Source: Pseudogemmatithrix spongiicola (GTDB lineage Bacteria; Gemmatimonadota; Gemmatimonadetes; Gemmatimonadales; Gemmatimonadaceae). Taken from it: a DNA stretch of 64,000 nt. Shown here in pieces: positions 5,270-12,712 of the stretch. The stretch covers positions 1,054,001 to 1,118,000 of the forward strand of contig NZ_CP130613.1 of the NCBI RefSeq assembly GCF_030623445.1, written 5' to 3'. How positions within the stretch are numbered: position 1 is the stretch's first letter; each line of letters opens with the position of its first letter. The notes beneath the pieces were generated by a model. It was not told the DNA's origin. It made no database searches and was given only the letters and a program-made list of their open reading frames with translations. A program made the translations under genes and the position numbers.

Positions 5270-5337
5270 AGCGTAGCGGATGCAAGCTGGGGTTGCTGAG
5301 ACGCTCAACCGGCACCCCGCCAGAGGCTCCTGTGAAC
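5261..5337 (+). promoter_or_regulatory. Hairpin sequestering the transposase start codon
   Basis: GTTCACAGGAGC (5261-5272, partly inside the left inverted repeat) is perfectly complementary to GCTCCTGTGAAC (5326-5337), which includes the GTG start at 5332. An mRNA read in from the upstream kinase gene would contain both arms and bury the start. A transcript beginning after 5272 would not. Comparable fold-back protection is established for IS10 and IS50; its use here is inference. Confidence 0.6.
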
Positions 5338-6255
5338 ATCCACAAGAATGCACGTCTGACCGTCGCGGGGCGACTCGCCGTCGCGACCGCCGTTCTGGGC
5401 GGGCAGGATCCCGCCGCCGTCGCCCGGGGCGCGGCCTGTTCCGTCCGCACCGTCTGGAAGTGGGTCGCCCGCTTCCGCACCGGCGGCGCGGCGGCGCTCG
5501 CGGACCGCTCGTCGCGCCCGCATCGCCTCACCCAGCTCCCGCGGCCGCAGCGCCGCGCGATCCTTCGGGGCCGCACCCGGCGGCGCTGGAGCTCGACGCG
5601 CATCGCCCAGGAGACGGGCATCCCGCTCTCAACGGTGATCCACTTCCTGCGCCGCCACGGCCTGCAGCGGCTCCCTCGGCTCGAGCCGCCGCGCGCGGTG
5701 CGCCGCTACGAGATGCGGGCACCGGGCGAGCTGCTGCACGTCGACACGAAGAAGCTCGGGCGCATCGGCCGCGTGGGGCACCGCATCCACGGCGACCGCC
5801 GGACCCGCGTGCGCGGGATCGGCTGGGAGGCGGTGCACGTCGCGGTGGACGCCTACTCGCGCGTGGCCTACGCCGAGGTCCTGCCCGATGAGCGCGCGGC
5901 GACCACGGCGGCCTTCCTCGCACGGGCGATCGCGTGGTACGCGGCGCTCGGCGTGCGGGTGCGCGCCGTGCTCACCGACAACGGGAGCTGCTATCGCAGC
6001 CACGCGGTGCGCACGCTCCTCCGCTGCGACGGCATCACGCACAAGCGCACCATGCCCTACACGCCGCGCACGAACGGCAAGGTCGAGCGGCTGATCCAGA
6101 CGCTCCTGCGGGAATGGGCGTACGCGCGCCCCTACCCCTCCTCGCGGGTGCGCACGGAGTGGCTCGCGCGCTACCTGCGGACGTACAATGAGGCGCGCGG
6201 ACACTCAGCCCTCAACTACCTCCCCCCCATGCTGCATCTCGCTGCGGCCCTGTGA
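5332..6255 (+). CDS. IS481-family transposase (DDE integrase core)
   Basis: The 307-residue protein has an N-terminal helix-turn-helix region (about 1-65, with VRTVWKWVARFRTGG) followed by an rve/DDE catalytic core. The acidic residues are visible in LLHVDTKK, VLTDNGSCYRS and NGKVERLIQTLLREW. GTG 5332 was chosen because it follows an AGAGG stretch and gives a family-typical length. A TTG at 5293 is in frame but less likely. The TGA stop lies inside the right inverted repeat. The start codon is buried in a 12-bp stem with IS end sequence. The gene is uninterrupted. Confidence 0.92.
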   Translation: MNIHKNARLTVAGRLAVATAVLGGQDPAAVARGAACSVRTVWKWVARFRTGGAAALADRSSRPHRLTQLPRPQRRAILRGRTRRRWSSTRIAQETGIPLSTVIHFLRRHGLQRLPRLEPPRAVRRYEMRAPGELLHVDTKKLGRIGRVGHRIHGDRRTRVRGIGWEAVHVAVDAYSRVAYAEVLPDERAATTAAFLARAIAWYAALGVRVRAVLTDNGSCYRSHAVRTLLRCDGITHKRTMPYTPRTNGKVERLIQTLLREWAYARPYPSSRVRTEWLARYLRTYNEARGHSALNYLPPMLHLAAAL

Positions 6256-8733: not shown

Positions 8734-10860
8734 ATGCGAGTCCTCGCCATCCTCCCCGTCTGCCTCCTCGCCCTGCCCCTCGCGGCGCAGGGCCGCCCAT
8801 CGCCGGACAGCGTCCGAGCGGATTCCGCCCAGCGGCTCGCGACCCAGCGCGTGACCGTTGCCCGGGGCGACGCCGCGCTGGACCGCGTGCCCTGGGCCGT
8901 GGGCACGCAGCGCGTCGAGCAAGTGCGGCGCGGCCAGGCGACGGTCGGCATCGATGAGGCGCTCGCGAACATCCCGGGCGTCGTGGTCGCGAATCGCTAC
9001 AACTACGCGCTGGACCAGCGGGTGTCGATCCGCGGCGCGGGGAGTCGGGCCAACTTCGGCCTGCGCGGCGTGAAGGTGTTGCTCGACGGCGTGCCGCAGT
9101 CGCTGCCGGACGGACAGTCGCAGCTCACCAACGTGGACCTGGCGGCGATCGGGTCGGTCGAGGTGCTGCGCGGCTCGGCGTCATCGCTGTACGGCAACGG
9201 GTCGGGCGGCGTGATCGCATTCACCACGGATCTCAGCTCGCCGACGCCGCTGGGTGTCACGCTGCGGCACACGAGCGGCTCGTTCGGGCTCGAGAAGTCG
9301 CAACTGCGGCTCGCCGGCCGCGGGGAGCGCACGCTGGGCATGCTCAGCGTGTCCCGCACGCGCGTGGATGGCTTCCGCCAGTACAGCGCGGCGGAGACCT
9401 CGCAACTGCTGGCGGCGCTCGACCGCGCCATCGGCGCCAACATGACGCTGCAGCTGCGCGCCGGCACGGCGGAAGTGCCGAAGGCCTTGAATCCGGGGGC
9501 GCAGACGCAGGCGGAGTACGACGCGAATCCCGACAGCGCCGCCCTGGCCAACGTGAATCGCGGCGCGAGCCGCGAGGTCACGCAGCGGTATCTCTCGGCG
9601 CGGCTGCGGGGCAGCATGGCGCGAGGCGAGTGGAGCGCGGCGCTGTACGGGCAGCGCCGCTTCGTGGACAACGCCCTCGCCGTTCCGCCTCCGGGTGCGC
9701 CGACGGCCGCGACCTCGCCGCGCGGCACGTTCAGTACGCTCGACCGCCGCGTGACGGGCGCGCGCGTCGATGTCCAGCGGCAGCTGGCGGAGGCGTGGCG
9801 ACTCACGACGGGCTTCGACCTGCAGCGCAGCTTCGACGTGCGGCGCAACCAGGCGGCGACGGGGGGACGGCCGACGACGCCCACAGACACGTTGCTGCTC
9901 GACCAGAACGAGATCGTCGTCAGCGTCGGGCCGTTCGCGCAGGTGCAGTGGGAGCCCACGCCCACGCTCACGGTCAGCACTGGCGCACGCTGGGATCGCC
10001 TGGAGTTCCGGGTCGACGACAACTTCCTGACCGACGGGCGCGACAACACGGGCAGCCGTCTGCTCACCGCGACGACCGGGCACCTTGGCGCGGTGTGGCG
10101 GCTGCGGGAGTGGATCGCGCCGTACGCGAACGTGGCCACGGCCTTCGAGACGCCGACGACGACGGAGCTGCAAGTGCGGCCGGACGGGCAGGGGGGATTC
10201 AATCCCGAGCTCGGCCCGCAACGACTGCGCACGCTCGAGGTCGGTGCGCGCGGACGTTGGGGCGCGCGGCTGACCTACGAGCTGGCGCTGTTCCAGGTCG
10301 ACGCCGAGGACGCGATCGTGCAGTACTTGGAGACCTCTGGTCGCGCGTTCTTCCGCAACGCGGGGCAGACACGGAGCCGCGGCGCGGAGCTGGGGCTCGG
10401 GCTGCGCGCGACGACCTGGTTGGAGCTGCAGGCGGCGTATACGCTGGCGGACTATCGCTTCGACGAGTACATCCTGCCGCTCACGAGCACGACGGCCGAC
10501 ACGCTGGACGGCAATCGCCTCGCCGGGGTGCCCGAGCGCGCGCTGCGGCTCGGTGCGCGGGCCCGCTGGCGCGCGACGACCGTCGATGTGGACCACAGCA
10601 CGCAGGGCGCGATGTTCGGCGACGATCGGAATCTCGTGCCGGTGGGCAGCTGGGGGCGTGGGCAGCTCAACCTGCGCGTCGCGCACACGGCCGAGCTGCG
10701 CGGCTGGCGCGTGGAGCCCTTCGCCAGCGTGCAGAACGCGCTCGACGAGCGCTACGTGGGGGCCGTGACACTGAATGGTGCCTTCGGGCGCGTGCTCGAG
10801 GGCGCGCCGGGTCGCAACTGGTATGTGGGCGTGGAGCTCGCCGCGCCGCTGCTGCGCTGA
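8734..10860 (+). CDS. TonB-dependent outer-membrane receptor
   Basis: The 708-residue protein begins with a signal peptide (MRVLAILPVCLLALPLAAQG). A plug domain follows at about residues 60-175 (IDEALANIPGVVV, RGAGSRANFGLRG, LRGSASSLYGNGSGG). The rest is a beta-barrel with many alternating aromatic strands, ending in VGVELAAPLLR. Such receptors import siderophores, cobalamin or other large ligands using TonB energy. No ligand-specific neighbour is present, so the substrate is unknown. ATG 8734 was chosen because the signal peptide starts there. It is divergent from the hybrid kinase gene, with 97 bp between the starts. Confidence 0.9.
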   Translation: MRVLAILPVCLLALPLAAQGRPSPDSVRADSAQRLATQRVTVARGDAALDRVPWAVGTQRVEQVRRGQATVGIDEALANIPGVVVANRYNYALDQRVSIRGAGSRANFGLRGVKVLLDGVPQSLPDGQSQLTNVDLAAIGSVEVLRGSASSLYGNGSGGVIAFTTDLSSPTPLGVTLRHTSGSFGLEKSQLRLAGRGERTLGMLSVSRTRVDGFRQYSAAETSQLLAALDRAIGANMTLQLRAGTAEVPKALNPGAQTQAEYDANPDSAALANVNRGASREVTQRYLSARLRGSMARGEWSAALYGQRRFVDNALAVPPPGAPTAATSPRGTFSTLDRRVTGARVDVQRQLAEAWRLTTGFDLQRSFDVRRNQAATGGRPTTPTDTLLLDQNEIVVSVGPFAQVQWEPTPTLTVSTGARWDRLEFRVDDNFLTDGRDNTGSRLLTATTGHLGAVWRLREWIAPYANVATAFETPTTTELQVRPDGQGGFNPELGPQRLRTLEVGARGRWGARLTYELALFQVDAEDAIVQYLETSGRAFFRNAGQTRSRGAELGLGLRATTWLELQAAYTLADYRFDEYILPLTSTTADTLDGNRLAGVPERALRLGARARWRATTVDVDHSTQGAMFGDDRNLVPVGSWGRGQLNLRVAHTAELRGWRVEPFASVQNALDERYVGAVTLNGAFGRVLEGAPGRNWYVGVELAAPLLR

Positions 10861-10909: not shown

Positions 10910-11440
10910 ATGCCACAACCGAACCCCTTAGCCTTCGAAATCCGCGACTCCGGCATCGCCGGCAAGGGCGCGTTTGCCATCCGTCCCATTCAGAAGGGCG
11001 AGCAACTCATCGAATACGTGGGCGAGCGCATCACGCACGCCGAGGCCGATGCGCGCTACGACGACGAGTCGATGGACGAGCACCACACGTTCCTGTTCAC
11101 GATCTCGTCGCGCATGGTGATCGACGCGACCAACGACGGCAACGAGTCGCGCTACATCAATCATTCCTGCGATCCGAACTGCGAGGCGGAGATCGACAAG
11201 GGCCGCGTGTTCATCTCGGCCATCCGCGACATCCCGGTCGGCGAGGAACTGCACTACGACTACGCGTACGAGCGCAGCGGCGACGAGACCGAGGAAGACG
11301 AGAAGCGCTACAAGTGCCTCTGCGGCACGGCCAAGTGCCGCGGCTCGATCATGGAACCGGTGAGCGTCTTCAAGGCCCGCAAGCGCAAGGAGGCGGCGCA
11401 GCGCGCCGCCCGGAAGCGCAGGGCCGCTACGAAGAAGTAG
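10910..11440 (+). CDS. SET-domain protein lysine methyltransferase
   Basis: The 176-residue protein is a compact SET domain with post-SET motif. It shows GKGAFAI (residues 18-24), RYINHSCDPNC (81-91, cofactor binding), the catalytic-tyrosine strand YDYAY (116-120) and the post-SET pattern C136-x-C138-x4-C143, which with Cys91 can bind zinc. SET enzymes transfer methyl from S-adenosylmethionine to protein lysines. The last 23 residues contain about 12 Lys/Arg and could bind nucleic acid or be a substrate tail. Bacterial substrates of this subgroup are unknown to me. The 3' end overlaps the convergent esterase gene by 14 bp. Confidence 0.9.
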   Translation: MPQPNPLAFEIRDSGIAGKGAFAIRPIQKGEQLIEYVGERITHAEADARYDDESMDEHHTFLFTISSRMVIDATNDGNESRYINHSCDPNCEAEIDKGRVFISAIRDIPVGEELHYDYAYERSGDETEEDEKRYKCLCGTAKCRGSIMEPVSVFKARKRKEAAQRAARKRRAATKK

Positions 11441-12047
11441 CCGTACGCCACGCGCGCGACGCGTCCACGTCGTCGCGCGTGAGTTGGTGGCCGACCGGTG
11501 CCCAACGCAGCGTCACGTCGGCGCCGGCCTCGCGCAGCATCGTCGCGAGGCGTTCGCTGTTGCTCGGCGTGATGATGGGGTCGTGCTCGCCGGCGGCGAT
11601 GAACACGCGCGTGCCGCGCAGGTCGGGCAGCGTCTCGGGCTCGAACGGCACCATCGCGCGGTAGAGGATCGCCTCGCGCACGAGGCCCGGCCGCAGCAGG
11701 AGCAGCGCCGCCGCGATGTTCGCCCCGTTGCTGAAGCCCACCGCCGTCACGCCGTCGGTGGCGAAGCCGTATTCGGCGCTGGCGGCTACGACGAAGTCGC
11801 CGAGCTGCGCGGTGCGGGCCTTGAGATCGGGGATGTCGAAGACGCCCTCGGCGAGCCGGCGGAAGAAGCGCGGCATGCCGTGCTCGAGCACCTGCCCGCG
11901 CGGCGACAGGAGATTCGCCTCGCGGTCGATGAGGTCGCCGAGGGGAATGAGGTCGTTTTCGTCACCGCCGGTGCCGTGGAGGAGCAGCAGGGTGCGGGCG
12001 CTGCCCTCGCGGGGCTCCCAGCGGTGCGTGAAGGCGAGGTCGGTCAC
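11427..12047 (-). CDS. Phospholipase/carboxylesterase-type alpha/beta hydrolase
   Basis: The 206-residue protein has the alpha/beta-hydrolase pattern LLLLHGTGGDENDL (oxyanion region), GFSNGA (nucleophile Ser), GEHDPII (acid) and VGHQL (His). The layout matches the small carboxylesterase/lysophospholipase family that includes YpfH-like proteins; the substrate cannot be assigned. It starts at GTG 12047, overlapping the TGA stop of the upstream cyclophilin gene by 4 nt (GTGA), which argues for translational coupling. It is the last gene of a three-gene operon. Confidence 0.85.
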   Translation of the reverse strand: MTDLAFTHRWEPREGSARTLLLLHGTGGDENDLIPLGDLIDREANLLSPRGQVLEHGMPRFFRRLAEGVFDIPDLKARTAQLGDFVVAASAEYGFATDGVTAVGFSNGANIAAALLLLRPGLVREAILYRAMVPFEPETLPDLRGTRVFIAAGEHDPIITPSNSERLATMLREAGADVTLRWAPVGHQLTRDDVDASRAWRTATSS

Positions 12048-12712
12048 GGAAACCAGGCTTTGATGACGGTTGCCCGTACAATCCGATCGAGTAGCGGGAA
12101 GTTCGCGGCGAGGTAGGCTTCGCCTTCCCGGGTGATGCGCTCCTGGCTGGGCGCGTTGGCGCCGTCGCCGTAGCCCGTGTAGAGCGAGTCGACCGCGTCG
12201 AGTCCGCTGATCACTTCGCCGATGGGCGGAAAGCCGAGGCCATCGAGACGCGGATTGTCGCGCAGGTTGACGAACATCTGGGTGGTGCGCGTGTTCGGGC
12301 CACCGCTGGCGAAGACGAGCGTACCGCGGCGGTTGGTCTGCGTCACCGGATCGTCGGGGATCGTGCGCGTGCGCCAGCGCGCGGTGACGGCAGTGTCCGC
12401 GGCGAGGCCGAACTGCGAGACGAAGCCGCGGATGGTGCGGAAGAAGCGCGCGCCGTCGTAGTAGCCAGTGGCTACCGCTTCGTAGAACTGCGCGGCGCCA
12501 TTCGGGGCCCAATCGCGGCGGACGATGATGTCTACCTCGCCCTTCGTGGTCGTGAGGCGCGCGACGAAGGAGTCCGGCACGACGCCTGGCGTGAACGGCG
12601 GGACGTCGGGCGCGGGTGCGACGCTGGCCGCCTGCGGCGCGCAGGCGGCCAGCACGACGGCGACGGTGACGACGAGAACGCGGCGAAGGGCGGATGTGGG
12701 AGGGCGCTGCAT
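12044..12712 (-). CDS. Cyclophilin-type peptidyl-prolyl isomerase lipoprotein
   Basis: The 222-residue protein has a lipoprotein signal ending VVLAAC (Cys24), so it is probably anchored in the cell envelope. A cyclophilin fold follows: TTKGEVDIIVRRDWAPN, FFRTIRGFVSQFG, then GTLVFASGGPNTRTTQMFVNL and FPPIGEVISGLDAVDSL. It would catalyse cis-trans proline isomerisation during envelope protein folding. FASGGPNT/TQMF resembles the active-site MA(R)...SQFF region with substitutions, so activity may be altered. It begins 7 bp after the preceding gene and overlaps the next by 4 nt. Confidence 0.85.
   Translation of the reverse strand: MQRPPTSALRRVLVVTVAVVLAACAPQAASVAPAPDVPPFTPGVVPDSFVARLTTTKGEVDIIVRRDWAPNGAAQFYEAVATGYYDGARFFRTIRGFVSQFGLAADTAVTARWRTRTIPDDPVTQTNRRGTLVFASGGPNTRTTQMFVNLRDNPRLDGLGFPPIGEVISGLDAVDSLYTGYGDGANAPSQERITREGEAYLAANFPLLDRIVRATVIKAWFP

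Follow-up and report, generated by a model that had tools for sequence, protein, structure and literature searches.

The window analysed here, a stretch of 64,000 nucleotides from Pseudogemmatithrix spongiicola, encodes a SET-domain protein, SET-A, that may act as a DNA-tethered lysine methyltransferase for the bacterium's own nucleoid proteins, with a SWIB protein bearing a histone H1-like tail as the leading candidate substrate. We put the probability of this sequence-based reading at roughly 45%. It draws on what was observed of the SET domain, its motifs and fold model, the retention of the gene throughout the family, the basic extension and the co-occurrence of SET-A with SWIB. The gene is kept by nearly the whole family without an obvious host and is found also in a second phylum, and it combines a tether-like extension with a concrete candidate substrate. 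SET-A and the H1-like SWIB protein may belong to a home-grown bacterial chromatin system. The features of the locus are collected in Table 1.

Table 1. Features of the SET-A locus, in window coordinates
Feature	Position	Strand	Description and basis
SET-A, SET-domain protein-lysine methyltransferase gene	10910..11440	+	176 aa plus stop (ATG 10910, stop ending 11440; window ORF list); predicted from ORF, Pfam PF00856 and fold
SET catalytic core, residues 9-122 (GKG, EYVGE, NHSCDPNC, ELHYDY)	10934..11275	+	Pfam, alignment, motifs
NHSCDPNC, residues 84-91	11159..11182	+	motif; C87, presumed fourth zinc ligand, invariant in 50 rows
Post-SET CxCx4C (C136, C138, C143)	11315..11338	+	motif; invariant in 50 rows
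Basic C-terminal extension, residues 151-176	11360..11437	+	12 K/R in last 23; a single long helix in the model; charge conserved
TonB-dependent receptor gene	8734..10860	+	49 bp before SET-A; Pfam, genus adjacency; possibly co-transcribed; start is the ATG ahead of the apparent signal peptide, chosen by reading
MhqD-like esterase gene	11427..12050	-	convergent; overlaps SET-A stop by 14 bp

SET domain, catalytic motifs and fold model

The start of SET-A is well fixed, because the open frame gains just 3 more codons upstream of the ATG (179 aa). The Pfam SET model (PF00856) matches the protein with 94.6 bits against a curated cut-off of 22.4 (E 5.8e-27). A match of this strength is not due to chance, and it places the protein in the SET-domain family, as do its motifs and fold. 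No domain besides SET was found in the Pfam search of the protein. Its sequence matches in the PDB are yeast Set1 (E 2e-26), ASH1L, and enzymes of the MLL-family, SETD2 and NSD types. By sequence, SET-A is an ordinary member of the SET enzyme family, with an activity that is predicted.

The first-pass annotation had credited the protein with every hallmark of a eukaryote-type SET enzyme, including NHSCDPNC and CxCx4C. All of these were located, namely GKG at residues 18-20, EYVGE at 35-39, NHSCDPNC at 84-91, ELHYDY at 113-118 and CLCGTAKC (CxCx4C) at 136-143, and the claim is borne out further by the Pfam score and by an MLL3-like model. The protein thus holds the GxG, NHxC and ELxxDY motifs of the S-adenosylmethionine (SAM) and lysine sites, where we presume for each motif the role assigned to it, as well as the CxCx4C and NHxC cysteines of the post-SET class. 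In an alignment of 50 diverse rows, S14, G18, G20, E35, Y36, G38, N84, H85, C87, N90, C91, E113, L114, D117, Y118, C136, C138 and C143 do not vary. Because the rows were retrieved with patterns at residues 58-66 and 111-120, the lack of variation in these two stretches is in part built in. The CxCx(3-6)C pattern is present in 80 of 80 relatives and the NHxC pattern in 79 of 80.

The AlphaFold2 model (pLDDT 91.4, pTM 0.81) displays a SET fold followed by a helix at residues 151-175. When the first 150 residues were compared to the PDB with VIA-align, the best match was MLL3 (Z 18.3, rmsd 1.6, 139 residues aligned), followed by MLL1 (Z 18.1) and yeast Set1 (Z 17.8). The model is metal-free, and we infer a putative zinc site on C87, C136, C138 and C143, of which C87 is taken to be a ligand by assumption. 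Alignments place a tyrosine ahead of the catalytic D-Y of SET-A, as in Set1 and MLL. The residue at this position is a product-specificity switch, and tyrosine favours mono- or dimethylation.

A basic extension conserved in charge

The tail had been described as 23 residues with about 12 Lys/Arg, and residues 154-176 indeed hold 12. The SET-A C-terminus is the most basic of 45 crudely called window genes, with 12 K+R in the last 30 residues against a mean of 4.42 (sd 2.40) for the window genes. Over the last 30 residues, the net charge averages +9.2 in 78 relatives compared to +1.2 in 534 neighbouring genes (Mann-Whitney 1e-34), a comparison that uses crude gene calls and related sequences that are not independent. 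The N- and C-terminal extensions taken together have a net charge of at least +5 in 75 of 79 relatives, and the median for the core is -5. The basicity of the tail is a conserved trait rather than noise.

No invariant column was found within the tail in the 50-row alignment; charge, not sequence, is conserved in the extension. It is as if charge rather than position were selected, because four relatives (L096, L100, L105 and L129) move the basic extension to the N-terminus: their C-tail is 9 aa long and neutral, and an N-extension of 43-54 aa, a length that rests on the nearest ATG, carries +9 to +15. The tails of Myxococcaceae and Archangiaceae have 51-83 aa and a Lys/Ala/Ser/Pro composition of the histone-H1 type, and the net charge of the tail reaches +27 among the relatives. 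Both Nitrospirota members (L093, L109) are exceptions with acidic C-tails. We read the extension as a putative polyanion-binding tether that is under selection. It should be mentioned that AlphaFold2 confidently models the SET-A tail as helical rather than disordered, which counts against the tether reading. Single charged helices are often over-confident in models of this type.

Distribution and phylogeny

A SET match is present in 17 of 17 same-genus genomes, and a SET-A ortholog in 16 of 17, with at least 65% identity in the 15 others. The genus member without it, G009, has a 1.8-Mb genome with a weak and distant SET match, and lacks SWIB as well. At the family level, a match was obtained in 146 of 148 genomes and one at E ≤ 1e-40 in 141 of 148, where orthology is assigned by score rather than from an all-hit tree and some genomes hold two such genes. 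The exceptions to this threshold are G009, G071, G076, G094, G111, G131 and G142, and the scores of G076, G094, G111 and G142 are no better than that of the genus paralog.

In a draw of 298 Gemmatimonadota genomes at E ≤ 1e-54, SET-A was found in 99 of 103 genomes of the home family and in 12 of 195 outside it. Among 146 Myxococcota genomes, 48 have a match at E ≤ 4e-79, 17 have one at 9e-15 or weaker, and 81 have none. The best 80 of 327 relatives in the contig scan are mostly from Gemmatimonadota, then from Myxococcaceae and Archangiaceae, and the rest are two Nitrospirota-labelled MAGs, one Rhodospirillales and one further bacterium.

In a tree of 95 rows, midpoint-rooted and with eukaryotes represented by four fragments on long branches, SET-A clusters with its genus (15 rows, 100/99) inside a larger bacterial group, of 79 rows (94/87), that includes neither the genus paralog nor any of the four eukaryotic fragments. 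The tree, charge and neighbour analyses omit two relatives, L144, whose frame extends into other sequence, and L126, whose frame is still open where the contig ends. Absence from close relatives together with eukaryotic nesting had been named as the pattern that would point to recent acquisition without a core role. Neither was found. A recent eukaryotic transfer is ruled out by retention in 16 of 17 genus and 141 of 148 family genomes and by the bacterial clade in the tree, and SET-A is, as judged from these comparisons, a family-core gene with no recent eukaryotic acquisition.

A SWIB protein with an H1-like tail as candidate substrate

An internal role such as methylation of nucleoid proteins had been suggested, along with a check of the genome for histone-like or Lys-rich DNA-binding proteins. 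In the genome (3.26 Mb, single contig), neither the histone-fold family PF00808 nor the Hc1 family PF07432, which belongs to the Chlamydia-type set of SET, H1-like and SWIB proteins, gave a match, and the one copy of HU has 107 aa and no lysine-rich tail. On the PF00808 result, SET-A does not qualify as the methyltransferase of a true histone. The suggestion of a nucleoid role is strengthened by a SWIB/MDM2 protein (PF02201, 91.9 bits; L192:1216-1656, - strand; C1 3058949-3059389), the SWIB member of the Chlamydia-type set, which has an N-extension of 32 aa and whose N-terminal tail, MAAKKKAAKKPAKKAAKKPAKKAAKKATKRKP, is histone-H1-like in its Lys/Ala/Pro make-up and includes KKPAKKAAKK, and by the co-occurrence of SWIB and SET-A in two phyla. 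Because PF00808 and Hc1 are unmatched and the lone HU is without a lysine-rich tail, the substrate is probably more narrowly defined than had been guessed. A long distance separates the SWIB gene from SET-A in the genome.

A search of the genome for KKAxKK-coding DNA gave 6 matches at 2 places, compared to 1 for a reversed-pattern control. The place other than the SWIB gene is a 21-codon ORF, MAAKKKKAAKKATKKKAAKKK (L189:1474-1539, + strand; C1 521877-521942), with a strong AAGGAG Shine-Dalgarno-like site 8 bases ahead, and it is possible that this ORF encodes an H1-like micropeptide.

In Gemmatimonadota (298 genomes), SWIB is present in 99 of 111 genomes with SET-A versus 41 of 187 without (Fisher 1e-31), and in Myxococcota in 48 of 48 versus 37 of 98 (Fisher 3e-15); the Fisher and Mann-Whitney tests used in this work ignore relatedness, and the counts are not independent events. 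Outside the home family, within Gemmatimonadota, SWIB occurs in 5 of 12 genomes with SET-A versus 38 of 183 without, a difference that is not significant (p 0.14). The SET-A genomes without SWIB comprise 7 outside and 5 inside the home family. SWIB does not need SET-A, since many genomes carry SWIB alone. The co-occurrence is confounded by phylogeny, and SET-A may track a few clades.

A basic N-extension with a net charge of +5 to +30 is present on 31 of 31 Gemmatimonadota SWIB loci inspected, these being the 30 best-scoring loci plus that of P. spongiicola, with the last in-frame ATG taken as the start. Its median is 61 aa and +24 in genomes with SET-A (n=24) versus 21 aa and +10 in those without (n=7; length p 0.001), and in Myxococcota 30 aa and +10 (n=5) versus 15.5 aa and +6.5 (n=6; p 0.007), in a post hoc comparison that covers the best-scoring SWIB loci only, includes many close relatives and omits L235, which has no in-frame ATG. 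The lone SET-A row from outside the home family in Gemmatimonadota, L222, has the longest SWIB tail (70 aa, +30). Counter-examples are L212, with SET-A and a tail of 18 aa, and L223, without SET-A and with a tail of 50 aa and a net charge of +27.

Proposed role of SET-A and alternatives

We propose that the SET core would bind SAM and transfer a methyl group to a lysine side chain, with the lysine channel closed by zinc on C87, C136, C138 and C143. The basic extension may tether SET-A to DNA, which would lead it to act on nucleoid-bound proteins. The most likely substrate would be the H1-like Lys/Ala/Pro tail of the SWIB protein encoded in the same genome, and the tail of SET-A itself and HU are further candidates. 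Methylation of this kind would change the compaction of the nucleoid or its transcription. In a broader and more doubtful form of the proposal, a DNA-tethered SET protein in Gemmatimonadaceae and in Myxococcus-type myxobacteria would mark the SWIB H1-like tail as well as itself and set compaction or expression, independently of any eukaryotic host. Myxococcus xanthus is a genetically tractable laboratory species, and the question is directly testable because an ortholog-like gene is present there (L112:5983-6648). As a putative family-core, DNA-tether-like SET protein beside an H1-like SWIB protein, SET-A appears to be a variant worth an experiment.

DNA need not be the only ligand of the polybasic tail, which could bind RNA too, a point against the DNA-tether reading. 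A tail that cannot tell the two apart might bind ribosomal RNA, in which case SET-A would methylate a ribosomal protein or a translation factor, and retention as a family-core gene suits a housekeeping modification of this sort. We consider such a role unlikely. No translation gene adjoins SET-A in the few annotated loci, most other families of the phylum are without SET-A, which would be odd for a universal target, and SET-A is associated with SWIB.

The length of the tail, its H1-like make-up and a net charge that reaches +27 also fit a protein that is chiefly an H1-like DNA-binding protein. Its own tail would then be the substrate, with binding to DNA tuned by self-methylation and any other substrates incidental. 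A basic extension that is kept with its sequence free to vary fits this reading too. The catalytic core, however, is much better conserved than the tail, the tail encoded in the window is short (26 residues), and SET-A tails show no excess of the ARK motif (16 of 74 versus 13.7 in shuffles). These points make self-methylation as the main function rather improbable. The reading of SET-A as a DNA-tethered methyltransferase of nucleoid proteins, with SWIB as its leading substrate, is preferred over both.

Comparison with known SET systems

Basic stretches can serve as nuclear signals, and the closest solved structures to SET-A are eukaryotic H3 methyltransferases. SET-A could on these grounds be a secreted nucleomodulin that targets histones in eukaryotic neighbours, like Legionella LegAS4/RomA or Chlamydia NUE. 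A partial match to the Dot/Icm effector model AnkI/LegAS4 (NF043024), with which SET-A shares the SET domain, amounts to 44.8 bits against a cut-off of 550 bits, and in SET-A, unlike AnkI/LegAS4, no second domain was found by Pfam; membership in this T4SS effector family was rejected. No secretion gene was found among the annotated neighbours, and SET-A is near-universal in the family and separate from the eukaryotic rows of the tree. An effector function is very improbable.

SET-A resembles the SET1/MLL (KMT2) enzymes in its SET plus post-SET fold, in its best sequence and structure matches and in the tyrosine before DY. It differs from them as a stand-alone protein of 176 aa on a separate tree branch, in a genome without a PF00808 match. 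The chlamydial set of cpnSET/NUE, Hc1 and SWIB is similar, by description only, in that a bacterial SET protein is accompanied by lysine-rich H1-like and SWIB proteins. Unlike in Chlamydia, there is no obvious host, SET-A has a basic extension of its own, the H1-like tail forms part of the SWIB protein, and the Hc1 family is unmatched. The archaeal Go1-SET of Methanosarcina mazei is, again by description, likened to SET-A as a prokaryotic SET protein reported to act on the DNA-associated MC1-alpha, a substrate of another family.

In passages of published work, cpnSET methylates chlamydial Hc1 and Go1-SET methylates MC1-alpha (PMC3980110), and the reports are discordant for the chlamydial enzyme, with Hc1 methylation by cpnSET and none by NUE (PMC3980110, PMC6426960). 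The portions of PMC6426960 on SWIB describe ChIP-seq peaks of the Waddlia SWIB protein over the whole genome, and the co-occurrence of SET and SWIB is already in print there. SET genes are known in free-living bacteria at 1-4 per genome, according to part of PMC3980110. In passages of a 2022 review (PMC10117894), the bacterial SET proteins described are for the most part effectors directed at a host. The review regards as open how protein modification affects DNA processes in bacteria, and calls the modification of bacterial chromatin proteins 'still under discussion'. A search of the titles and abstracts of open-licence PMC papers found no literature on the SET-A protein itself, and no earlier account, in the same papers, of a basic SET extension, of near-universality in Gemmatimonadaceae and the Myxococcus group, or of a pairing with H1-tailed SWIB. 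The nearest precedents are known; what appears to be new is the conserved basic extension of the SET protein, its family-wide presence and its pairing with an H1-tailed SWIB protein.

Genomic neighbourhood

SET-A had been taken to stand outside any obvious operon. This has to be corrected, since a TonB-dependent receptor gene lies immediately 5' of it on the same strand, at 49 bp in the window, in 16 of 16 genus loci (the window and 15 others), and no terminator-like site was found on the + strand of the TonB receptor/SET-A region. The order TonB receptor, SET, PPIase is kept in the 15 other genus loci, with hyp171 and ComM where the contig reaches. The MhqD-like esterase gene is matched in only 5 of these 15. 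The best NCBIfam match of the receptor is PqqU (NF041535), whose 308.9 bits are far under the cut-off of 1200.

Outside the genus, the receptor adjoins SET in two of five loci (L067 and L068) and does not in L069-L071, and the M. xanthus locus L112 has an altogether different neighbourhood, with no TonB receptor beside SET. Up to three genes per side were clustered for 78 relatives, and no cluster occurs in more than 32 loci; the clusters come from a crude gene caller and are mostly unannotated, and an informative partner of lower frequency may have escaped notice. The TonB cluster covers 32 loci, one of them myxobacterial, and supplies the immediate same-strand upstream gene 21 times. The receptor, constant in the genus and in L067 and L068, was rejected as a conserved operon partner. 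Because it is absent from L069-L071 and L112 and only one of the 32 cluster loci is myxobacterial, its linkage to SET-A is regional within Gemmatimonadota and gives no clue to a function shared with myxobacteria. The adjacency and the missing terminator-like site would suit a TonB-linked function, with SET-A co-transcribed with the receptor and acting on an envelope or uptake protein, which is the least probable reading of all in view of this patchy linkage, the polybasic tail and an N-terminus at which no signal peptide is apparent by reading.

Elsewhere in the window, an IS481-family transposase gene (5293-6255; NF033577, 273 bits) lies between a Ser/Thr kinase gene and a hybrid histidine kinase gene. 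It is probably a recent insertion, as it has no match in 20 related loci, 7 of which span the same kinase pair.

Further SET genes in the genome

The genome holds four SET matches. The second is a SET plus post-SET gene (C1:2262142-2262591; L002/L026) whose product has 45% identity to SET-A and a less basic tail. It sits between a sigma-factor-like ORF and a DUF445-like ORF, both named by sequence reading, and is present in 16 of 17 genus genomes. The third SET domain (C1:92260-92703) forms the C-terminus of a long protein (L003:139-1938) that is ATP-grasp-ligase-like by reading, with matches in frames of 362-740 aa in 14 of 17 genus genomes. The fourth is a protein of 196 aa (L004:1354-1944, - strand; C1 about 1434906-1435271) with NHSCDPS and a C-terminal CxCx4C.
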